From positions 1-22,386 of the IMG/VR virus record IMGVR_UViG_3300032288_001182: a stretch of DNA of 22,386 nt. One strand, written 5' to 3'. Below, piece by piece: positions 4,940 to 17,315 of the stretch (position 1 is the stretch's first letter; each line of letters begins with the position of its first letter). A program made the position numbers and the translations under genes. This stretch comes from a virus. The notes under the pieces are model-generated. The model was not told where the DNA came from and made no database searches. It saw only the letters and a program-made list of their open reading frames with translations.

Positions 4940-7351
4940 ATGAGCATAGAAAAATCACTATACGCAGCCCCAGAGGGTTTAGCGGCATTAGACCAAGAGC
5001 CCGATATTGAGATTGAGATCGAGGATCCGGAGTCAGTAAAGTTAAGCATTGAAGGAGAAGAGATCCTTGAGATGCGCCAAGGTGAGGGGTCTGAAGACTT
5101 TAACGAGAACCTTGCTGACGTATTAGATGAAGGCACGATTCAGTCCTTAGCGGGCGATTTAGCAGAAGATATTAGTAACGACCTAGCCTCCCGCAAAGAC
5201 TGGGAGCAGATGTATAAAGACGGTATTACGTTATTGGGCTTGAAGTTCGAGGAAAGAACAGAGCCATGGGATGGCGCATGCGGTGTGTTCCACCCGATGA
5301 TTACAGAAGCGGTGGTGCGGTTCCAGTCAGACACCATCATGGAGACTTTTCCGGCAAGGGGCCCCGTACGTACACAGATAGTTGGTAAAGAAACGCCAGA
5401 GAAAAAAGAAGCGGCGACTCGTGTTGAAGAGGACATGAACTACCAGCTCACGGAGAAAATGCCTGAGTACCGCCCTGAGCACGAGAAGATGTTGTGGAAC
5501 CTGCCAAGTGCTGGTTCGGCGTTTAAGAAGGTGTACTACGACCCAAGCCTAGAGCGCCAAGTATCCATATTTATTCCAGCAGAAGATGTGATCCTGCCAT
5601 ACGGCGTCTCCGAAATTAACACCTGCCATCGCATTACCCACGTAATGCGCAAGAACAAAAACGACCTGTTAAAGCTCATGAATGCGGGCTTTTATCGGGA
5701 CGTTGAGCTAGGAGAGCCTAGCCGGTTCACAAGCGATATTCAAGAACGCAAGGACAAAGAGACTGGGTTCTCGGCATCTTATGACGACCGTTTTGAGATT
5801 TATGAGTCGCACGTTGACTTGGATATTCCTGGCTACGAGGACAAAGATAAGGACGGCGAGCCAACAGGTATTGCTCTGCCATATGTGGTTACGATGATCC
5901 GTGGCACGGACGAGGTCTTGGCAATTCGCCGTAATTGGAAAGAAGAAGACCCACTGAAGTTAAAGCGTCACCACTTCGTGCACTACCAGTACATCCCTGG
6001 ATATGGGGCGTATGGCTTTGGTTTGTTCCACCTGATCGGTGGTTATGCGAAGTCAGCAACATCCATAATGAGGCAGCTCGTAGATGCAGGTACGCTATCA
6101 AACCTGCCCGGTGGTCTAAAAGCCAGAGGACTGCGTATTAAGGGGGACGACACGCCAATTAGTCCGGGAGAGTTCCGTGACGTAGATCTGGGTAGTGGCA
6201 ATATTCGAGACAACATCCTGCCCCTGCCGTACAAAGAGCCTTCGATGGTTCTGTCGGGGTTGATGGACAAGATCGTTGAGGAAGGTAGACGCTTTGCGGC
6301 TACTTCGGATATGAAGATTGCCGATATGTCTAACCAAGCGCCGGTAGGAACCACACTGGCGATTCTGGAGCGGACGTTAAAAGTGATGTCGGCGGTTCAA
6401 GCCCGTGTACACTATTCGATGAAGCAAGAGTTGCAGTTATTGGCTGCGATTATCAGAGACTACACAGATGACGAATACACCTACGAGCCAGAAGACGGAA
6501 CAGCGCGTGCTAAGAAGGCGGACTATAGCAATGTTGAAGTGCTTCCCGTCTCAGACCCAAATGCGGCTACCCTTTCCCAAAGAGTCGTTCAGTACCAAGC
6601 TGTCATTCAATTGGCGCAGATGGCTCCACAGATTTACAATCTGCCAGTTTTACATCGTCAGATGTTGGAAGTGCTTGGTATTAAGCATGCGAGTAAGCTG
6701 GTGCCGTTGGAAGAAGACCAGAAACCGAAAGACCCAGTAACAGAGAATCAGAACGTTCTTAAGGGTAAACCCTTAAAGGCATTCTCGTATCAAGACCACG
6801 AAGCACACATCAAGGTGCACCAGATGGCGATGCAAGATCCCATCGTACAGCAACTTATTGGTCAGAACCCCATGGCGCAGGTTATACAGTCAGCCATGCA
6901 GGCACACATCGCCGAGCACGTGGGTTATGCGTATAGAAACAAAATAGAACTAGCCCTCGGCGTTGCACTGCCTAGCTCAGAAGATGAGCTCCCAGATGAG
7001 ATGGAGAAAGAGATCAGTCGCCTCATGGCAGAAGCCGCACCGCAGGTATTGGCAGAGTCCCAAGCCATGGCTGCTCAACAGCAAGCCCAGCAAAACGCTC
7101 AAGACCCAGTCTTACAGATGCAGATGCAAGAACTTGAGCTTAAGAAGCAAGAGTTGCAGCTCAAAGCCCAGAAACTACAGGTGGATGGGGCTGCCAAGAT
7201 GGACGAGCTAGCCATGAAGAAGCAAGAACTTGAGGCTAACGCTCAGCTTGAGATGATCAAATTGGGTCAAAAACAACAACTTGACGGCACTAAATTAGGT
7301 GTAGAAATAGCCAAAAGCCGCAGAGAAATGATGAAAAAGACGAAGGAGTAA
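4940..7351 (+). CDS. Portal protein (large, P22-like) with coiled-coil C-terminal extension
   Basis: This 803-residue protein forms the dodecameric ring at the capsid vertex through which DNA passes. Its place directly after the large terminase and its size fit large podovirus-type portals (P22's is about 725 residues). The central region includes the family-like stretch MRQLVDAGTLSNLPGGLKARG (around residues 378-398) and the helical segment beginning IVEEGRRFAATSD, typical of the stem region. The first 50 residues are very acidic (DIEIEIEDPES). From about residue 690 to the end is a Gln/Lys/Glu-rich coiled coil, reminiscent of the P22 portal barrel that extends into the capsid. An AGGA stretch precedes the ATG. 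Confidence 0.9.
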   Translation: MSIEKSLYAAPEGLAALDQEPDIEIEIEDPESVKLSIEGEEILEMRQGEGSEDFNENLADVLDEGTIQSLAGDLAEDISNDLASRKDWEQMYKDGITLLGLKFEERTEPWDGACGVFHPMITEAVVRFQSDTIMETFPARGPVRTQIVGKETPEKKEAATRVEEDMNYQLTEKMPEYRPEHEKMLWNLPSAGSAFKKVYYDPSLERQVSIFIPAEDVILPYGVSEINTCHRITHVMRKNKNDLLKLMNAGFYRDVELGEPSRFTSDIQERKDKETGFSASYDDRFEIYESHVDLDIPGYEDKDKDGEPTGIALPYVVTMIRGTDEVLAIRRNWKEEDPLKLKRHHFVHYQYIPGYGAYGFGLFHLIGGYAKSATSIMRQLVDAGTLSNLPGGLKARGLRIKGDDTPISPGEFRDVDLGSGNIRDNILPLPYKEPSMVLSGLMDKIVEEGRRFAATSDMKIADMSNQAPVGTTLAILERTLKVMSAVQARVHYSMKQELQLLAAIIRDYTDDEYTYEPEDGTARAKKADYSNVEVLPVSDPNAATLSQRVVQYQAVIQLAQMAPQIYNLPVLHRQMLEVLGIKHASKLVPLEEDQKPKDPVTENQNVLKGKPLKAFSYQDHEAHIKVHQMAMQDPIVQQLIGQNPMAQVIQSAMQAHIAEHVGYAYRNKIELALGVALPSSEDELPDEMEKEISRLMAEAAPQVLAESQAMAAQQQAQQNAQDPVLQMQMQELELKKQELQLKAQKLQVDGAAKMDELAMKKQELEANAQLEMIKLGQKQQLDGTKLGVEIAKSRREMMKKTKE

Positions 7352-7354
7352 TAC

Positions 7355-7561
7355 ATGCAACTAGAAACAATGAGTTTTGCCCAAGCGCTTAGAGACAAAA
7401 TTCGCTCGGACATGAACAACTTTACGGACGACATGGCTAGTGGACAGTGTATTGATCATGCGTCTTACAAAGAACTTTGCGGGGTGATTCGAGGTCTAGC
7501 CTACGCAGAGCGGCATTTAATTGACCTCGCTGACAACATAGAGAAGGCTAACGATGAGTGA
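7355..7561 (+). CDS. Small hypothetical protein between portal and co-chaperonin
   Basis: A 68-residue, probably all-helical protein (MQLETMSFAQALRDKIRSDM...). It has a strong GAAGGAG ribosome-binding site that lies within the end of the portal gene. Its end overlaps the next gene by 8 bases, so the two are translationally coupled. The helix-rich, mildly acidic sequence has two cysteines (residues 29 and 39 approximately) but no motif I can name. The location suggests a head-assembly accessory; function unknown. Confidence 0.75.
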   Translation: MQLETMSFAQALRDKIRSDMNNFTDDMASGQCIDHASYKELCGVIRGLAYAERHLIDLADNIEKANDE

Positions 7562-7982
7562 AGCTATAGCAGTTCCGGAGAAAGAGTTAATCCTGCCGCC
7601 GGGTGTAAAAGCCCCAGAAGTGGATGCAGAGTACGAATCAGCAGAAGTTAAGGCAAAAGCACTACCAGAGCCAAAAGGCTGGCGGATGCTGTGTGCTTTG
7701 ATTGACCCTGACGATACTTATGAAAGTGGTCTTGTAAAAGCCGATGCGACCAAGCAGGTTGAGGAGTTAACCTCCCCAGTGCTGTTTGTCATCAAAATCG
7801 GACCCACCGCATATGATCCAGAGAAGTTCCCAGAAGGGGCTTGGTGTAAGGAAGGCGACTTCGTTATTACCCGTCCGTATACCGGGACACGGATCAAAAT
7901 CCACGGCAAAGAGTTCCGCTTGATTAATGATGATCAAGTAGAAGCAACAGTCGAAGACCCACGCGGTATTTCCCGCGTTTAA
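7554..7982 (+). CDS. GroES-like co-chaperonin (Cpn10)
   Basis: In this 142-residue protein, residues 42-135 match the GroES fold layout. GWRMLCALIDPDD is the first strand. YESGLVKADATKQVEE (56-71) is in the place of the GroEL-binding mobile loop, including a Gly-Leu-Val hydrophobic group. VLFVIKIGP (76-84) matches the VVAVGPG strand. CKEGDFVITRPYTGTRIKIHGKEFRLINDDQVEATVED (98-135) closely follows the GroES pattern of VGD-V-F, a Y-G pair, and a closing 'DD-AVLE' strand. The first 40 residues are an acidic/proline extension absent from host GroES. Like T4 gp31, it probably partners host GroEL to fold capsid protein, which agrees with its place between portal and scaffold. Confidence 0.85.
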   Translation: MSEAIAVPEKELILPPGVKAPEVDAEYESAEVKAKALPEPKGWRMLCALIDPDDTYESGLVKADATKQVEELTSPVLFVIKIGPTAYDPEKFPEGAWCKEGDFVITRPYTGTRIKIHGKEFRLINDDQVEATVEDPRGISRV

Positions 7983-10074: not shown

Positions 10075-10989
10075 ATGGCTATTTCACGCGCACAACTACT
10101 TAAAGAGTTGCTCCCAGGCTTAAACGCTTTGTTCGGTTTAGAGTACAAGCGTTACGGCGAAGAGCACAAAGAGATCTACGAAACTGAGAAATCAGAGCGT
10201 AGCTTTGAAGAAGAAACCAAGCTGTCCGGCTTCTCTGCTGCACCAGTCAAGAACGAGGGCTCAGCCATCGCTTATGACAATGCACAAGAGGCATTTACAG
10301 CTCGCTATAACCACGAAACCATCGCCCTCGGCTTCTCCATCACTGAAGAGGCAATCGAGGACAACTTGTATGACAGCCTTTCTGGTCGTTATACCAAGGC
10401 TTTGGCTCGTGCTATGGCTTACACCAAGCAGGTTAAATCTGCGGCTGTGTTGAACAATGGCTTCACCAATTCCAGCCAGTATTACGGCGGCGACGGTGTA
10501 CCTCTGTTCTCTACTTCACATCCGTTGGTTTCTGGTGGTGTTAACAGCAACCGTCCTTCCACTAACTCTGACTTGAATGAGACTTCGTTGGAAAACGCAG
10601 TTATTCAAATCGCAGCTTGGACAGACGAGCGTGGCTTGCTCATCGCAGCAATGCCCCGTAAGTTGATCATCCCACCAGCACTACAGTTCGTTGCAACTCG
10701 TTTACTTGAGACTAACCTCCGTGTTGGTACCACTGACAACGACATCAACGCATTGAAGAACAATGGTTCGATCCCAGAAGGTTACGCAATTAACCACTAT
10801 CTGACCGACACCAATGCTTGGTTCTTGACAACTGATGTACCTAACGGCATGAAGCATTTTGAGCGTATGCCTTTAAGTAACTCAATGGACGGCGACTTCG
10901 ATACTGGTAACGTACGTTACAAGTCTCGTGAGCGTTATTCGTTTGGCTGGTCTGATCCACTCGGAATGTTTGGTTCACCAGGAGCGTAA
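10075..10989 (+). CDS. Major capsid protein (HK97-fold type)
   Basis: A 304-residue protein. The N-terminal 45 residues are charged and helical (LLKELLPGLNALFGLEYKRYGEE), compatible with a scaffold-contacting arm. It has an E-loop-like segment and the central helix GFSITEEAIEDNLYDSLSGR with ALARAMAYTKQVKSAAVLNNGF. The latter is close in style to Mu gpT-like major head subunits (spine helix region followed by ALLNNGF). The stretch PRKLIIPPALQFVATRLLE matches the P-domain strand-helix seen in such capsids. The preceding AAGGAG is one of the strongest sites in the window, and the gene ends at a strong terminator, both fitting very high expression. Confidence 0.88.
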   Translation: MAISRAQLLKELLPGLNALFGLEYKRYGEEHKEIYETEKSERSFEEETKLSGFSAAPVKNEGSAIAYDNAQEAFTARYNHETIALGFSITEEAIEDNLYDSLSGRYTKALARAMAYTKQVKSAAVLNNGFTNSSQYYGGDGVPLFSTSHPLVSGGVNSNRPSTNSDLNETSLENAVIQIAAWTDERGLLIAAMPRKLIIPPALQFVATRLLETNLRVGTTDNDINALKNNGSIPEGYAINHYLTDTNAWFLTTDVPNGMKHFERMPLSNSMDGDFDTGNVRYKSRERYSFGWSDPLGMFGSPGA

Positions 10990-11641: not shown

Positions 11642-12136
11642 ATGACGATGCAATATGACGTAAAAGCAGCGCATTTAAATGCTACCGGCATAGCGTATTT
11701 AGGGCGTACCCGTTTAAAGGGCTTGTTAACTGTTGGTAGCACAACCGCAGGGGTGGTTAATCTTTGGGACTCCACCACAGCAGCTTTGGGCGGTACATAT
11801 AGCCGTACGGGTAATACTGTTACTGTTACTGTTACTTCGCATGGCTTAGCTAATGGACAGGCATTTGGTTTTGCTGCCTCTACTGGTAATGCTTCAAGCG
11901 GTAACTTTACGGTTGCTTCAGTGGCTAACGCCAATGCGTTTACCTTTACGGATACCCTAAATACTGGCTCTACTACTGGTAACTGTGGCATTAACACCCG
12001 TTGGTTGATGTCGTTTGATACAGCTAATAACCAAGCAGAAACCTATTTGTTACTGCCCGGCGAGGGCATTTTGGCACAAAACGGTATTTCTGTTGGTTTA
12101 GCTAACCAAACCAGCATGACGGTGTTTTATGGCTAA
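11642..12136 (+). CDS. Small structural protein with an inserted beta domain
   Basis: This 164-residue protein has its own AGGAG site. Residues about 50-115 (GTYSRTGNTVTVTVTSHGLA to FTFTDTLN) form a self-contained beta module. The 'Y-R-TGNTVTVT---HGLA-G----------TG--SSG-FTV-SV-NAN-FT-T' pattern is one I recognise from many phage tail and decoration proteins, where it occurs as a mobile module. The flanking parts (residues 1-45 and 118-164) read like one continuous small beta domain split by it. The end overlaps the next gene by 8 bases. It is probably virion-surface; exact role unknown. Confidence 0.65.
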   Translation: MTMQYDVKAAHLNATGIAYLGRTRLKGLLTVGSTTAGVVNLWDSTTAALGGTYSRTGNTVTVTVTSHGLANGQAFGFAASTGNASSGNFTVASVANANAFTFTDTLNTGSTTGNCGINTRWLMSFDTANNQAETYLLLPGEGILAQNGISVGLANQTSMTVFYG

Positions 12137-12449
12137 GAGCCCTGCTTGGACTCGTAAGGAAGGCAAAAACCCCGAAGGCGGTCTAAACGCCAAGGGGCGT
12201 GCCTCGTATAACGCCGCTAACCCTGGGAAACCGGGGCTAAAAGCTCCTCAGCCAGAAGGCGGTCCAAGACGTGATTCGTTCTGTGCCCGCATGAAAGGCA
12301 TGAAGAAAAAGCTAACCAGCGCTAAAACTGCCAACGACCCCAACAGCCGCATCAACAAGTCCCTGCGGGCTTGGAACTGCAAAGAAGGTGGGGCTGTACG
12401 TGGCGGTGGTTGCGAAGTCCGTGGTAAGACTAAAGGAAGGATAGTGTGA
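12129..12449 (+). CDS. Basic small protein, DUF6321-like, with C-terminal RGGGC-type tag
   Basis: A 106-residue, strongly basic protein. The beginning (KSPAWTRKEGKNPEGGLNAK, residues 3-22, then GRASYNAANPGKP) and the following RRDSFCARMKGMKKK and SRINKSLRAWNC match my memory of the phage family called DUF6321; I have not checked that name. After a short linker it ends in RGGGCEVRGKTKGRIV (91-106), the 16-residue tag shared by four downstream proteins. AAAGGAAGG in the tag's DNA is the ribosome-binding site of the next gene. The charge suggests nucleic acid binding, perhaps a virion DNA-condensing or ejected protein. Confidence 0.75.
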   Translation: MAKSPAWTRKEGKNPEGGLNAKGRASYNAANPGKPGLKAPQPEGGPRRDSFCARMKGMKKKLTSAKTANDPNSRINKSLRAWNCKEGGAVRGGGCEVRGKTKGRIV

Positions 12450-12450
12450 T

Positions 12451-12651
12451 ATGGCTATCGGTGAACGCCCAGAAGATTTAGAAACTTTAAGAAAAGCCTT
12501 TGGTGAAGTAGAAGGCGCATACGGTAAAGTTTTTCCAAGTATTCAAGGGCAATTAACAGGTTCTTTACCAGCGCAGAAAAAAGCCAAAGGAGGCAAAATT
12601 CGTGGCGGTGGTTGTGAGATTCGTGGCAAAACTAAAGGACGGATGGTCTGA
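12451..12651 (+). CDS. Small tagged protein (66 aa)
   Basis: A 66-residue protein. A short acidic helical part (ERPEDLETLRKAFGEVEGAYG) is followed by a linker KKAKGGKI and the 16-residue tag RGGGCEIRGKTKGRMV (51-66). The tag differs from the one just upstream by only two residues, and its DNA is also very similar, which suggests recent duplication. Its stop overlaps the next ATG (TGATG), with AAAGGA from the tag codons 11 bases before that ATG. No family is recognised apart from the tag. Confidence 0.65.
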   Translation: MAIGERPEDLETLRKAFGEVEGAYGKVFPSIQGQLTGSLPAQKKAKGGKIRGGGCEIRGKTKGRMV

Positions 12652-12911
12652 TGGAACTAATAATTAGCATTGTTCTTGGGCTGTGGTCTTTGGCACTAAG
12701 CGTAGTGTTATCTATTATTGGCTATGCAGTGAGAGAAAAATTGGACAAGATTAAAGAATTGGATGAGAAGTTAAACGCAACCAGAGTGGAGGTAGCTCGT
12801 GATAACGTTACTCAAGCAGAAATTGACAAAATTATGGTCCACATTGACCAGCGCTTTAATAAACTTGAAGACAAAATTGACCAACTTATTCAGAAAGGGT
12901 TAACAGCATGA
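12651..12911 (+). CDS. Small membrane protein: N-terminal transmembrane helix plus coiled coil
   Basis: An 86-residue protein and the only clear membrane protein in the window. Residues 2-27 (LIISIVLGLWSLALSVVLSI) form one transmembrane helix. Residues about 29-80 are a heptad-like Lys/Glu/Asp coiled coil (EKLDKIKELDEKL and RFNKLEDKIDQLIQK). There is no signal cleavage site or lipobox. Candidates are a holin-like or spanin-like lysis factor, or an ejected membrane-contact protein. I see no lysozyme next to it, so lysis is only one option. It overlaps both neighbours by 1-4 bases, so expression is coupled to the tagged basic proteins. Confidence 0.7.
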   Translation: MELIISIVLGLWSLALSVVLSIIGYAVREKLDKIKELDEKLNATRVEVARDNVTQAEIDKIMVHIDQRFNKLEDKIDQLIQKGLTA

Positions 12912-13093
12912 AACACTCAGATATTGCAAAAGACATGCCGATGATGAAAAAAGTAGCTGCTAAAGCAGTTAAAGGACACGAGGCACGTATGCACAAAATG
13001 GCGGGTGGTGGTGTAACCCGTGCTGATGGCTGCGTTATGAAGGGTCACACCAAAGGCAAGATGGTTAAGATGGCGGGCGGCGGAAGTTGCTAA
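12908..13093 (+). CDS. Small His/Met/Lys-rich tagged protein (61 aa)
   Basis: A 61-residue basic protein. Met- and Lys-rich helices (MPMMKKVAAKAVKGHEARMH) precede a variant of the shared tag, RADGCVMKGHTKGKMV (38-53). Here the tag is followed by eight more residues, KMAGGGSC, so it is internal rather than terminal, and a short GGG element is repeated (MAGGGVTR and MAGGGSC). It starts in an ATGA overlap and ends directly against the next ATG. Function unknown; high charge suggests binding to DNA, RNA or an acidic protein surface. Confidence 0.6.
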   Translation: MKHSDIAKDMPMMKKVAAKAVKGHEARMHKMAGGGVTRADGCVMKGHTKGKMVKMAGGGSC

Positions 13094-13489
13094 ATGCCAA
13101 GTTCTCGTGTTAACCCTATTTCTTCTGCCGCCCAATTAGATTTGGGCTTTGGTAGCACCCCTGAGCAAGTGCAAAAAGGTAGAGCGGCAGATCCGGGGTA
13201 CAAAGAAGTTCACGAGAAGTACAACCCACCAGAGAAAGACCAGAAAGCTAAAGCTGCTGAGAACAAAGAGTTTGAAGACAAGCGCCAGCAAAGAAGTAAG
13301 TTGATCCAACAAGCCGAGATGGCTAAGATCAACGAGATCTTTGAGCGGTCTAAAGGGGGTGGCGGTGCTGCTGGTATCCCTAAGACTGGTAAAAAGCCCT
13401 ATGACTTTAAGAAGGGCGGTAAAGTTAGTGCATCATCTCGTGCTGACGGCTGTGCTGTACGGGGTAAGACTAGAGGACGGATGATATGA
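13094..13489 (+). CDS. Tagged basic protein (131 aa)
   Basis: A 131-residue protein. The first 35 residues are mixed polar (LDLGFGSTPEQVQKGRAADP). Residues 45-85 are a Lys/Glu/Gln helix (KAKAAENKEFEDKRQQRSKL). A Gly-rich linker and FKKGGKVSASS lead into the C-terminal tag RADGCAVRGKTRGRMI (116-131). The linker-plus-tag part (GGKVS-ASSRADGC) is nearly the same as in the next gene, while the N-terminal parts are unrelated. The tag has thus been shared between different proteins by duplication or recombination. Its DNA carries AGAGGA eight bases before the next ATG (ATGA overlap). Confidence 0.65.
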   Translation: MPSSRVNPISSAAQLDLGFGSTPEQVQKGRAADPGYKEVHEKYNPPEKDQKAKAAENKEFEDKRQQRSKLIQQAEMAKINEIFERSKGGGGAAGIPKTGKKPYDFKKGGKVSASSRADGCAVRGKTRGRMI

Positions 13490-13857
13490 AAAAAGATGAG
13501 TTGCCACAAGAAATGGTTGATCGCCTCACCCGTGAGGAGAACGAAGCCAACCCAATGGTTAAATTGCGGGACAAAATTTTTGGAGCTGAGAAAACTAGCA
13601 GCGGTCCATATAAAGGCACATACAACCCCGATAAAAAGCGGGGTGAGTTGTTAAAAGACGGCGTGTCTACTGGCGAATATTTCCCAGATAAAAAAGGTCT
13701 TTTTAAAGATACCTCCGGTATGGAAGGCGCTAAAAAACGTGCATCTGAACTTAATAAAGAACCAGTAAAGAAAGCCAAAGGCGGCAAAGTATCTTCAGCG
13801 TCATCTCGTGCAGATGGCTGTGCTATCAAAGGTAAAACCAAAGGACGCATGGTATGA
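13486..13857 (+). CDS. Tagged basic protein (123 aa)
   Basis: A 123-residue charged protein that begins MKKDELPQEMVDRLTREENE. Its middle section has a repeated 'PDKK' theme (YNPDKKRGELL and YFPDKKGLFKD). It closes with KAKGGKVSSAS and the shared tag RADGCAIKGKTKGRMV (108-123). It overlaps its neighbours by 4 bases on both sides. In the tag, AAAGGA lies eight bases before the next start. No enzymatic motif and no known family apart from the tag. Confidence 0.65.
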   Translation: MKKDELPQEMVDRLTREENEANPMVKLRDKIFGAEKTSSGPYKGTYNPDKKRGELLKDGVSTGEYFPDKKGLFKDTSGMEGAKKRASELNKEPVKKAKGGKVSSASSRADGCAIKGKTKGRMV

Positions 13858-14258
13858 GAGCCAGTCGAGGCATGGGCGCTGTAATGCCTAGCAAGATGCC
13901 GGGCAAGAAAGTCATTCATCGTAAGGACAACCCTAACGATGTGGATATGTACGCCAAGGGCGGTAAGGTTGGCGGTAAAGGCGTTGTTGTTACCAAGGGT
14001 GGCACAGCTTCTGCCATGGCAAAGAAATTACTACAGAAGCCCGGTTCGTTAACTGCGGCTGATATGTATGCAGAAGGTGGTAAGACGTCTAGCGTTAACA
14101 AGGCGGGTAACTACACCAAACCCGGTATGCGCAAGTCTTTATTTGAGAGTATCAAAGCGTCTGCTGTGCAGGGTACTGCTGCAGGTCAATGGTCGGCTAG
14201 AAAAGCACAGCTTTTGGCTAAAAAATACAAAGCAAAAGGTGGAGGTTATCGTGGCTGA
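13854..14258 (+). CDS. Basic Gly/Lys-rich protein (134 aa)
   Basis: A 134-residue, very basic protein. It contains two similar elements, DVDMYAKGGKVG (residues about 29-40) and AADMYAEGGKTS (about 69-80), joined by a Lys-rich segment, so an internal duplication is likely. The C-terminal part, KPGMRKSLFESIKASAVQGT followed by WSARKAQLLAKKYKAKGGGY, is an amphipathic helix plus basic tail. I recognise that arrangement ('RK--LFE-IKAS---GT--GQWSARKAQ-LAK-YK--GGGY') in many phage virion-module genes without an assigned function. It lacks the RxxGC tag. Likely a small DNA-binding virion or packaging accessory. Confidence 0.7.
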   Translation: MRASRGMGAVMPSKMPGKKVIHRKDNPNDVDMYAKGGKVGGKGVVVTKGGTASAMAKKLLQKPGSLTAADMYAEGGKTSSVNKAGNYTKPGMRKSLFESIKASAVQGTAAGQWSARKAQLLAKKYKAKGGGYRG

Positions 14259-14717: not shown

Positions 14718-15470
14718 ATGACCGTAGTTGCTAATGCAACATTTAATCTTGACCTCTCGGAGATGGTCGAAGAAGCGTTTGAGCGCTGTGGCTCAGAGCT
14801 TCGTTCTGGCTATGATTTAAAGACAGCTAGGCGCTCTCTTAACCTGTTGTTTGCTGACTGGGCAAACCGAGGCATTAACTTATGGACGATTGAGCAGGGG
14901 CAGATCCCGTTAGTTCAAGGCGTAAATACCTATGACTTGCCGGTTGATACTGTAGACTTGATTGAGCATGTTATTCGTACAAATCCTGGGGTGCAAAACA
15001 CTCAGGCAGACTTAACAATCTCACGCATCTCGGTATCTACATACGCAACAATCCCCAACAAATTGCAGCAAGCTCGCCCTATTCAGGTATGGGTAAATCG
15101 TCAGTCTGGAGCAACTTACGCTGGTACAAGCACTTCTAGCCCACCAGCAGGCGTTAACTATCCTAAGATCGTTATTTGGCCCACCCCAGACCAAGGAACA
15201 GCCCTAGACCCCTATTACACGTTTGTTTACTGGCGACTACGCCGTATTCATGATGCGGGTAATGGTATTAGCACAATGGACATACCGTTTCGTTTTTTAA
15301 CTTGCTTAGTTGCTGGTTTAGCTTATTACTTATCAGTTAAGTTACCAGAGGCTAAAGATAGGATTGGGTTATTAAAAGCACAGTATGACGAGGCTTGGGA
15401 GCTTGCGGCAACAGAAGACAGAGATAAGTCGCCTGACCGCTTTGTACCACGCCGTATGTACATCACCTAG
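14718..15470 (+). CDS. Head-tail adaptor (P22 gp4-like / head closure)
   Basis: A 250-residue protein. Residues 10-60 (LDLSEMVEEAFERCGSELRS, then GYDLKTARRSLNLLFADWANRG) have the helical beginning typical of podovirus adaptors that bind the bottom of the portal ring. A beta-rich middle with YDLPVDTVDLIEHV and PKIVIWPTPDQ follows, the 'YDLP'/'WP-P' arrangement of gp4- and gp11-type adaptors. The end is the helical region FLTCLVAGLAYYLSVKLPEA. Such proteins seal the filled head and join it to the tail. The length is larger than P22 gp4 (about 166 residues). Placed between the basic small genes and the fibre genes. No enzymatic motif. Confidence 0.7.
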   Translation: MTVVANATFNLDLSEMVEEAFERCGSELRSGYDLKTARRSLNLLFADWANRGINLWTIEQGQIPLVQGVNTYDLPVDTVDLIEHVIRTNPGVQNTQADLTISRISVSTYATIPNKLQQARPIQVWVNRQSGATYAGTSTSSPPAGVNYPKIVIWPTPDQGTALDPYYTFVYWRLRRIHDAGNGISTMDIPFRFLTCLVAGLAYYLSVKLPEAKDRIGLLKAQYDEAWELAATEDRDKSPDRFVPRRMYIT

Positions 15471-15478
15471 AGGTAGCC

Positions 15479-15901
15479 ATGCCAAATAGATTTGCGTCTG
15501 GTAAAAAGGCTATATCGCAGTGTGATCGCTGTAACTTTAGATTTCAGCTTAAAGAACTGCGTATTGAGATTATTAAGACTAAGCCGTATCAGTTGTACGT
15601 TTGTAAAGCGTGCTGGGATCCTGACCATCCACAGTTGCAGTTGGGTATGTACCCCGTTGAAGATCCGCAAGCATTACGGCATCCAAGACCGGATAATACG
15701 TACTATCAAGCTGGACTTACAGGGTTGCAGTTAAACCAGAATGCAGGAGCAACAGTTGATGGGTTTGGTGATCCAACGATGGGTAGCAGAGTGTTTCAAT
15801 GGGGGTGGAACCCTGTTGGTGGCGGGTCAAACTGGCCTCAAACGCCAAATGACTTGGTTTCTGGCGTAGTTTTAGGTACAGTTACGGTAACGACAACATA
15901 G
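15479..15901 (+). CDS. Small virion-module protein with a CxxC...CxxC zinc-ribbon
   Basis: A 140-residue protein. The four cysteines C15-x-x-C18 and C42-x-x-C45, with ISQCDRCNFRFQLKELRIEI between, form a clear zinc-ribbon. The following part (WDPDHPQLQLGMYPVEDPQALRHP) is a Pro/His-rich stretch I associate with many tailed-phage genes next to adaptors. The last 50 residues are Gly/Trp/Asn-rich and beta-like. There is AGAGG before the ATG. The zinc site may be purely structural. Its place between two adaptor-like genes suggests a neck or tail component. Confidence 0.7.
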   Translation: MPNRFASGKKAISQCDRCNFRFQLKELRIEIIKTKPYQLYVCKACWDPDHPQLQLGMYPVEDPQALRHPRPDNTYYQAGLTGLQLNQNAGATVDGFGDPTMGSRVFQWGWNPVGGGSNWPQTPNDLVSGVVLGTVTVTTT

Positions 15902-15910
15902 GAGAAAATT

Positions 15911-16132
15911 ATGTTTAAAAAAGGCGCAGATGGTATTACCAAAAAAGGTAAGACTGAAGGTAAAAATTTAGGTGATTCAGGTCCAAGCGTAGGCATTCAA
16001 GCTGGTGCTAAAGGGGCTAAAGGCAAGATGGGTGGCGGTAAAACCAACGAGCAAATGATGAAACTAGGTCGCAATATGGCTAAAGTAGCTAACCAAGGGA
16101 TGATGCGTAAAAGCGCAGGAAGGGGTCGATAA
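15911..16132 (+). CDS. Small Gly/Lys-rich basic protein (73 aa)
   Basis: A 73-residue protein: MFKKGADGITKKGKTEGKNL, then alternating Gly, Lys and Ala with GAKGAKGKMGGGK, ending in a Met/Lys helix MMKLGRNMAKVANQGMM and a basic tail KSAGRGR. This is a low-complexity, strongly basic composition like other genes in the row. It has an AGGAG site and its stop overlaps the next ATG by one base. Probably nucleic-acid-associated; no family. Confidence 0.65.
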   Translation: MFKKGADGITKKGKTEGKNLGDSGPSVGIQAGAKGAKGKMGGGKTNEQMMKLGRNMAKVANQGMMRKSAGRGR

Positions 16133-16395
16133 TGCCTAAGTACAGCATGAAACGTGATGGTAAAGAGGTTGGTCCAGCGTCTGTGTATGCTGAGCCACAC
16201 ACCATGGAAGGTAAAAAAGTAACTGTTGCTGGGGCTATTAAAGATAAGTCTGGTGCACAAGTTATGGACGACATGAACATCTCCATAGCTAAAATCAGTA
16301 AAAGCCTTGGTAAAGGTGTAAAGACTTCCGGCATTGAGACTCGTGGTAATGGAGCTGCTACTAAAGGGCGCATTGCTAGAGGACCAATGGCGTAA
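16132..16395 (+). CDS. Small basic protein (87 aa) with a divergent version of the tag ending
   Basis: An 87-residue protein that begins MPKYSMKRDGKEVGPASVYA. Helical residues 50-63 (MDDMNISIAKISKS) are followed by GKGVKTSGIETRGNGAATKGRIARGPMA-like ending residues. That ending keeps 'G-E-RG--AATKGRI' and so recalls the tag of the 12129-13857 group (RGGGCEVRGKTKGRIV), but without the cysteine and with eight extra residues. I treat it as a possible distant member. AGGAAGGGG before its ATG lies in the previous gene. Confidence 0.65.
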   Translation: MPKYSMKRDGKEVGPASVYAEPHTMEGKKVTVAGAIKDKSGAQVMDDMNISIAKISKSLGKGVKTSGIETRGNGAATKGRIARGPMA

Positions 16396-16406
16396 AGGTA
16401 AATCAT

Positions 16407-17315
16407 ATGAATTACACACAGCTTTACGAAGCTATTCAAAGTTATGCGGAGTCAACGGAGTCTCTTTTCGTTGCCAATATCCCTAATTTTGTCCAGCAAT
16501 GTGAAGAGCGTGTCTACAACGCAGTTCAAATCCCTGCTATTCGTAAAAACGTTATTGGTAACTTTACCCAAGGCGACTACTACTTAGCCCTGCCTATTGA
16601 TTATTTAGCGTCTTTCTCTCTTGCTGTAATTGATTCTAGCGGGAACTACGAGTATTTGATTGATAAAGACGTTAACTTTATACGCCAGGCTTACCCCAAC
16701 GCTACAAACGATACTGGTGTGCCAAAGTACTATGCTCAGTTTAAGCCCTATACATACATCATTGGACCTACCCCAGACGATAACTACCAGACCGAGCTAC
16801 ATTATTACTACTACCCAGAGTCTATTGTTCAAGGCGTAATAGGTGGATTTGGCACTATTGTTGGTGGATCAGGATATACCACCGGTATATACCAAAATGT
16901 ATCGCTTACTAATGGTTCTGGGCAATATGCAACGGCAACAATTGGAGTGGCGGGTGGCGCTGTTACAAGCGTAACAATTACTAACGGTGGATCGTTCTAC
17001 CTTACTGGTGACTCGTTAAGTGCTGCTAGCTCAAGTATTGGCGGTACAGGAACTGGATTTTCTGTGCCTGTTACGGTTATTAATAACTCGACTGGAACCT
17101 CATGGTTAGGCGATAATTTTGAAACTGTGTTGTTGTATGGTTCGTTACGTGAGGCTGTGATCTTCCAAAAGGGAGAGCAAGATATGGTCAATTACTACGA
17201 GCAAAAGTACCAAGAATCGTTAGCATTGCTTAAAGATTTGGGTGATGGTAAAGATAGAAGAAGCGCATACCGTGATGGACAACTTAGGCTGCCTGTACCT
17301 GGGCCTGTTAGATAA
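16407..17315 (+). CDS. Phage adaptor protein (T7 gp11-like) carrying an inserted beta domain
   Basis: A 302-residue protein. Residues 1-140 hold a helical start with YTQLYEAIQSYAESTE and FVQQCEERVYNAVQIPAIRK, then the YYLALPIDYLA and YYAQFKPYTYIIGPTPDDNY strands typical of phage adaptor / tail tubular protein A families. Residues 144-226 are a different composition. They form a Gly/Thr/Ser-rich beta module (TIVGGSGYTTGIYQNVSLTN and AVTSVTITNGGSFY) that is found by itself in phage fibre proteins. Residues 227-302 return to adaptor-like helices (DNFETVLLYGSLREA, MVNYYEQKYQESLALLK). The module seems to have been inserted into an otherwise normal, about 220-residue adaptor. Confidence 0.75.
   Translation: MNYTQLYEAIQSYAESTESLFVANIPNFVQQCEERVYNAVQIPAIRKNVIGNFTQGDYYLALPIDYLASFSLAVIDSSGNYEYLIDKDVNFIRQAYPNATNDTGVPKYYAQFKPYTYIIGPTPDDNYQTELHYYYYPESIVQGVIGGFGTIVGGSGYTTGIYQNVSLTNGSGQYATATIGVAGGAVTSVTITNGGSFYLTGDSLSAASSSIGGTGTGFSVPVTVINNSTGTSWLGDNFETVLLYGSLREAVIFQKGEQDMVNYYEQKYQESLALLKDLGDGKDRRSAYRDGQLRLPVPGPVR

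Follow-up and report, generated by a model that had tools for sequence, protein, structure and literature searches.

A conserved 16-residue tag on exchangeable small basic proteins of a large phage group: a candidate address for virion cargo

A 16-residue module, usually C-terminal, is conserved and maintained by selection on small basic proteins encoded only in the late gene module of a large and mostly freshwater group of phages, and the N-terminal parts to which it is joined are exchangeable. Each phage encodes 1-6 such proteins, small, basic and dissimilar to one another, nearly all of which end in the common 16-mer. The reading preferred here, at a probability a little under one half (about 0.48), is that the 16-mer acts as an address which would bring cargo proteins into the virion, in the way that the capsid targeting sequence of T4 and the targeting peptides of encapsulins do; we infer the virion location because the T4 internal proteins (PMC9026906) and the C-terminal encapsulin peptides (PMC10960027) are analogous. 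The tag sequence appears to be undescribed, and the principle appears to be a variant of known cargo addressing.

Results

The tag in the window

The window, that is, the whole stretch of virus DNA that was analysed, comprises the 22,386 bases of IMG/VR record IMGVR_UViG_3300032288_001182, and its relevant features are collected in Table 1. The original prediction held that five small proteins of the window carry a 16-residue tag at their ends, once eight residues from the end, and that their other parts are unrelated. This description is borne out: the implied open reading frames contain all five 16-mers, with profile scores of 29.9-35.5 bits, four of them end at the stop codon and RADGCVMKGHTKGKMV ends 8 residues before it, and no BLAST match exists among the remaining parts of the five carriers. 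Chance and amino acid composition are excluded as the origin of the tag because no carrier with shuffled residues exceeded 11.6 bits in 21,800 trials. The DNA sequences of the five tags use different codons. The conserved module also reaches upstream of the 16-mer, to a GG-x-[V/I/T] motif, and two weaker relatives of the tag lie further along the window, the first of them in a 73-residue protein whose orthologues in related phages reach the threshold of the tag profile.

Table 1. Genes and tags of the window, in order of position
Feature	Position	Strand	Remarks
Terminase	3396-4931		
Portal	4940-7351		
Scaffold (probable)			Between the GroES-like protein and the capsid protein in gene order
Major capsid protein (MCP)	10075-10989	+	Upstream anchor of the cassette; PF25209 47.5 bits, PF10124 34.5 bits, PHROG 371
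Tag cassette	12129-14258		
Tagged protein 1, 106 aa	12129-12449	+	DUF6321 domain (residues 12-82), then C-terminal GG-x-V and tag
Tag RGGGCEVRGKTKGRIV	12399-12446	+	Protein 1; ends at stop
Tagged protein 2, 66 aa	12451-12651	+	No family match
Tag RGGGCEIRGKTKGRMV	12601-12648	+	Protein 2; ends at stop
Untagged small protein	12651-12911	+	Within the cassette; hydrophobic N-terminus, coiled-coil-like tail; relatives in the same slot
Tagged protein 3, 61 aa	12908-13093	+	KMAGGGSC follows the tag
Tag RADGCVMKGHTKGKMV	13019-13066	+	Protein 3; 8 residues short of stop
Tagged protein 4, 131 aa	13094-13489	+	No family match
Tag RADGCAVRGKTRGRMI	13439-13486	+	Protein 4; ends at stop
Tagged protein 5, 123 aa	13486-13857	+	No family match
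Tag RADGCAIKGKTKGRMV	13807-13854	+	Protein 5; ends at stop
SU10-type adaptor	14718-15470	+	Downstream anchor of the cassette; PF24175 33.8 bits (cut-off 27)
73-aa protein	15911-16132	+	N-terminal tag variant ADGITKKGKTEGK at 15926-15964, 10.1 bits
87-aa protein	16132-16395	+	Ends in sister 17-mer RGNGAATKGRIARGPMA at 16342-16392
Second SU10-type protein	16407-17315		

Anatomy of the tag

Related loci were sampled in three ways, by capsid similarity (blind to the tag), by the tag pattern (biased towards Cys) and by adaptor similarity (blind to the tag). The profile search beyond the window that had been proposed as a check finds 439 copies in 436 open reading frames at 152 loci, counted over the capsid-selected and pattern-selected sets together with annotated relatives, and it finds the tag in both tag-blind samples as well. 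In the alignment the module consists of GG-x-[V/I/T], a Ser/Ala-rich linker of 0-8 residues and then RADG[C/I/V]Ax[K/R]GKT[K/R]G[K/R/T]M[V/I]. The end of the tag coincides exactly with the stop codon in 264 of the 439 copies, about 70 are followed by 8-9 further residues, and one family of 60-70 residue proteins has the tag near its N-terminus. Three proteins have two tags each (L100:4475-5590, L124:2903-4087 and L172:2-334). G4 and G9 are invariant in the sample, and T11 and K10 are found in 438 and 425 of the 439 tags respectively.

The single invariant cysteine of the original prediction is a property of the five window tags that does not extend to their relatives, in which position 5 is Cys, Ile or Val. 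It is Cys in 32/103 and 99/193 tags of the two tag-blind sets and almost always Ile or Val in the rest, so that the cysteine is replaced in roughly half to two thirds of these tags, and 56/103 and 80/193 tags (41-54%) are entirely free of Cys; in the pattern-selected loci Cys is over-represented, as the search pattern required it. This variation rules out an invariant cysteine motif and leaves the proposed linkage to a partner by disulfide or metal unsupported. Cys at position 16 is commoner when position 5 is not Cys (30/219 against 3/198, Fisher P 1.8e-6 with kinship ignored), an association to which no weight is given.

Four to five residues of each 16-residue tag are basic. The Walker A pattern [AG]-x4-G-K-[ST], read as G4-x4-G9-K10-T11, fits 403 of the 417 full-length tags, and this match is a curiosity, since the context rules out an ordinary NTPase: there is no strand-loop-helix arrangement and no match to an NTPase family, and the protein usually stops five residues after T11. 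The tag is predicted to be a flexible tail and not a domain, because AlphaFold2 gives the isolated module low confidence (mean pLDDT 58.2), and in the DUF6321 protein the pLDDT falls from about 60-79 over the domain to 33-35 in the last blocks of the tail.

Distribution across phages

Among loci in which the MCP is more than 80% identical and both anchors are readable, 71 of 71 have 1-6 tags in the span from MCP to adaptor (three in 28 loci, two in 19 and four in 13); part of these loci entered the sample through the tag pattern, and the capsid-selected part is also entirely positive. The adaptor-selected set, which is blind to the tag, is positive at 50 of 51 loci, and the carrier at the sole negative locus ends in a degenerate tag, RGCGVAQRGLTKGKVL. 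In each of 16 long contigs (42-67 kb) all matches at E up to 1e-3 are confined to a single block of less than 4 kb, and this block of confident copies sits between the head genes and the gene for the SU10-type adaptor. Planktothrix phage Pag-Yong1, with a capsid protein 72.8% identical, has one tag in the same gene slot, where UMO75986 ends in ASGGMIGRDGCAKRGRTKGRFI. The exact tag is absent from named relatives with an MCP 40-65% identical, such as HTVC023P, CRP-902 and KcrB, so a binding site for it need not be universal. A cellular or plasmid origin is rejected, as the 24-residue consensus has no match in plasmids and the tag pattern occurs in only 3 contigs of the genome-contig collection, all of them from MAGs. 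A match to the endonuclease VII of Roseobacter phage CRP-207 is a chance hit, the tag being missing from that protein.

The carriers and the exchange of their N-terminal parts

BLAST clustering of 397 carriers stripped of the module gives 133 clusters, of which the largest has 125 members (QHRFM-type proteins) and 98 are singletons; the cluster count is an upper bound on the number of unrelated families, because BLAST links short low-complexity proteins poorly. Carriers inside the MCP-to-adaptor spans of the 71 loci form 72 cargo clusters. An alignment of 115 representative carriers shows conservation only at Met1 and in the C-terminal module, and these representatives give one family match in Pfam (DUF6496) and one in PHROGs, the latter a weak match to endolysin. 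The carriers have a median length of 127 residues and a median pI of 10.1, with every pI above 9, and disorder-promoting residues make up 70% of them compared to 43-54% of four folded window proteins. Two carriers have a signal-like hydrophobic start. Many tagged proteins, including L117:1474-1890, L124:2903-4087 and the 125-member cluster, have the N-terminal module MPSxSKKQHxFMAAVAxNPxFAKKxGVPQSVG, which is 70% identical to phiKZ PHIKZ165.1 and also matches the beginning of proteins that carry a virion structural annotation in jumbo phages. A search of named phages with the whole of tagged protein 5 gave no match.

The separability of the tag is clearest in tagged protein 1, the N-terminal domain of which matches PF19846 (DUF6321) with 70.5 bits against a cut-off of 28.5. 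This domain of about 72 residues is mostly found without the tag and elsewhere is often C-terminal in other phage proteins; 19 of its relatives are tagged and 114 untagged. The domain ends in ...LRAWKC in the untagged relatives and continues as ...LRAWNC-xxGGxV...tag in the 19 carriers, so that the tag is a clean extension beyond ...LRAWNC. The DUF6321 protein (window 12129-12380) has matches in 532 phage records, mainly those of Synechococcus and Prochlorococcus phages and pelagiphages; its annotation as RecA-like in one relative is unsupported by any match.

Cargo genes are swapped between phages with MCPs 98-99% identical, and the tags are retained. In locus L288, the capsid protein of which is 99% and the adaptor 91% identical to those of the window, counterparts of the window genes 12451-12651 and 13486-13857 are missing, and a different tagged protein of 143 residues is found instead; locus L290 (98% capsid identity) has yet another tagged protein, of 157 residues, together with a version of the 123-residue protein that is missing its middle. 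The DNA alignment between the window and L288 is broken at about 12443-12907 and 13490-13776, and window positions 13798-13857 pair with a tag in L288 that belongs to the preceding gene, so that an alignment junction falls on tag DNA. Because junctions sometimes fall there, recombination from tag to tag may help the exchange of cargo.

Selection on the tag

The DNA of the tags is as divergent within genomes as between them (identity 0.617 and 0.604 respectively), and tag pairs within a genome have a pS of 0.71 and a pN of 0.28. Since synonymous sites are saturated, the tags of one genome are not recent copies of one another, and this codon divergence rules out recent duplication or gene conversion. 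Between orthologues dN/dS is about 0.15 for the tag and 0.13 for the rest of the carrier, which are rough values because synonymous sites are near saturation, and both are far below 1. These ratios indicate that the tag is maintained as a peptide and that the cargo parts are functional proteins too. The original prediction was to be abandoned if relatives with the same N-terminal parts lacked the tag and no selection on it could be seen; the DUF6321 domain does have relatives without the tag, but selection on the tag is clear, so that the outcome is mixed.

Sister tags

Two proteins of the cultured Pelagibacter phage HTVC023P, gp32 and gp51, end in RGVGAAIRGHKFIGVK and RGGGAAVRGMGFKGVF, which represent a marine sister 16-mer, RGxGAAx[R/K]GxxFxGVF, that is likewise terminal on unrelated proteins. 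It resembles the tag in its length, in the register of R1, G4, A6, K/R8 and G9 and in often following a GG motif; it differs in its C-terminal half (xxFxGVF as opposed to KTRGKMV) and in being carried by other phage groups. A search for the sister motif with a DNA pattern that included no stop codon gave 70 stretches, with 35 occurrences of the motif in an open frame (some near-duplicates included), all with 0-2 residues left before the stop; the carriers are several different proteins, and some contigs have two occurrences. No description of this 16-mer was found in the literature searched. Within the tag group itself, an 87-residue protein ends in RG[T/N]GAATKGxxARGPMA (window 16342-16392; also, for example, L199 and L163) and adjoins the second adaptor gene in most relatives. 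To judge from their sequences, these two motifs and the main tag may belong to a single kind of C-terminal tag of which each clade has its own version.

Discussion

The common address for unrelated proteins that was originally proposed agrees with all the results on modularity, purifying selection, presence throughout the clade and confinement to the region between head and adaptor; the identification of that address with the virion is only likely, and it is made by analogy. Under the cargo reading, the flexible tail formed by the tag would bind one conserved phage component of assembly (the scaffold, the portal/adaptor ring or the capsid protein on its inward side), and carriers bound in this way would be taken up into the particle as it grows. 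Their N-terminal parts would be the cargo, basic and largely disordered and lying with the DNA, and would probably enter the cell together with the DNA, where the host-specific targets that they meet would account for their fast renewal. Strict C-terminal docking is not general, because in a minority of cases the tag lies near the N-terminus or has 8-9 residues behind it.

In T4, diverse basic internal proteins share one conserved targeting sequence (PMC3012670, PMC9026906), and the resemblance of the present system to IPI, IPII, IPIII and Alt lies in a short common peptide on small basic proteins with a divergent remainder, whose genes are accessory, exchangeable and part of the late head programme (PMC3012670, PMC9026906). 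Both the common peptide and the divergent remainder are seen in the tag carriers. The position is different: the T4 sequence is N-terminal, has about 10 residues and is removed by gp21, whereas the window tag is usually C-terminal, ends exactly at the stop codon in the majority of copies given above, has 16 residues and is unrelated in sequence; moreover, targeting is proven in T4 and inferred here. T4-like maturation is not evident, because no separate prohead protease family was matched in the window ORFs scanned; the MCP matches models of protease-MCP fusions in their capsid part only. The cargo of Family 1 encapsulins is addressed by short, usually C-terminal targeting peptides (PMC10960027), and these peptides (e.g. 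GSLxIGSLK) are like the tag in being short, Gly-containing and C-terminal, with hydrophobic and basic positions, and in belonging to a system with an HK97-fold shell (PMC10960027). Both systems place such a peptide, conserved and usually C-terminal, on cargo proteins that are otherwise unrelated. They differ in that the shell here is a phage capsid protein, the cargo consists of small basic proteins that are apparently non-enzymatic, and the sequences are unrelated; the neighbour of the carriers is not an encapsulin shell gene but a phage capsid gene in a terminase-portal-capsid module.

The carriers could alternatively be small structural proteins of the neck or head vertex that use the tag as a docking strand on portal, adaptor or capsid and deliver no cargo. 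This is rather unlikely. Their genes do lie directly between the head and adaptor genes, the usual site of head-completion genes, and DUF6321, the only recognised domain among the window carriers, is well conserved; fixed structural parts should, however, be conserved one-to-one, and what is found behind near-identical capsids and adaptors is one to six tagged genes with differing non-tag parts, of a composition typical of disorder. That the tag is instead a phosphate- or nucleic-acid-binding tail which coats DNA (or RNA) and has no protein partner we consider unlikely. The basic residues of the tag, the uniformly high pI of the carriers and the fit to Walker A, reminiscent of a minimal phosphate-binding loop, are what such a tail would show, but G4, G9 and T11 hardly vary and positions 5, 15 and 16 are hydrophobic, which is more than charge alone would require, K10 and T11 are not kept in the marine sister tag, and the loop lacks its strand-loop-helix context, with the protein usually ending so soon after T11.

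An address that operates inside the infected cell, by which the carriers would be recruited to a host or phage protein outside the virion for late takeover, lysis or evasion of defence, would suit their variable, accessory-like character, the weak endolysin match of one representative carrier in 115 and the two signal-like starts; it is improbable given that no confident copy lies outside the late structural block and takeover genes are usually elsewhere. Very improbable is a unit of recombination or duplication that is copied between genes at the level of DNA and has no function as a peptide. Alignment junctions between close relatives do sometimes fall on tag DNA, as in the comparison with L288, but the codons are as divergent within as between genomes and the residues are kept, and this divergence, with pS far above pN, largely refutes the idea.

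No family in Pfam, PHROGs, NCBIfam or the PDB sequences covers the tag, and the solved structures (PDB sequences) contain no direct match for tag, capsid, portal or adaptor. A literature search with most subscription journals outside its range found no paper describing the tag and, on short tags common to phage proteins, only cases of the T4 and SPN3US types. If the tag does target the virion, then a profile of 16 residues would suffice to list, from sequence alone, the proteins that a very common kind of aquatic phage injects, proteins which are at present annotated as hypothetical and are almost without family matches. Cargo addressing like that of T4 would then have arisen in much smaller phage genomes and at the opposite end of the protein, and the peptide would serve as a short handle with which to load proteins into phage heads. 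A broader proposal, which is put forward tentatively and as doubtful, is that tailed phages have a widespread and so far undescribed C-terminal sorting system in which clade-specific 16-mers (RADGCAxRGKTRGKMV; in marine phages RGxGAAxRGxxFxGVF) load an open-ended and fast-changing range of basic effectors into virions for delivery with the DNA.

Other features of the window

Two more small proteins sit between the capsid protein and the tag cassette. A GroES-like protein (7554-7982) lies in the gap between portal and scaffold and barely passes its Pfam cut-off (21.3 bits against 21.1); a GroES gene is annotated at the equivalent position in several named relatives. Two window proteins (14718-15470 and 16407-17315) match the SU10 adaptor family, which suggests a neck of two rings. 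Between them, a 140-residue protein (15479-15901) with a CDRC...CKAC pattern, possibly a zinc ribbon, is kept in close relatives.
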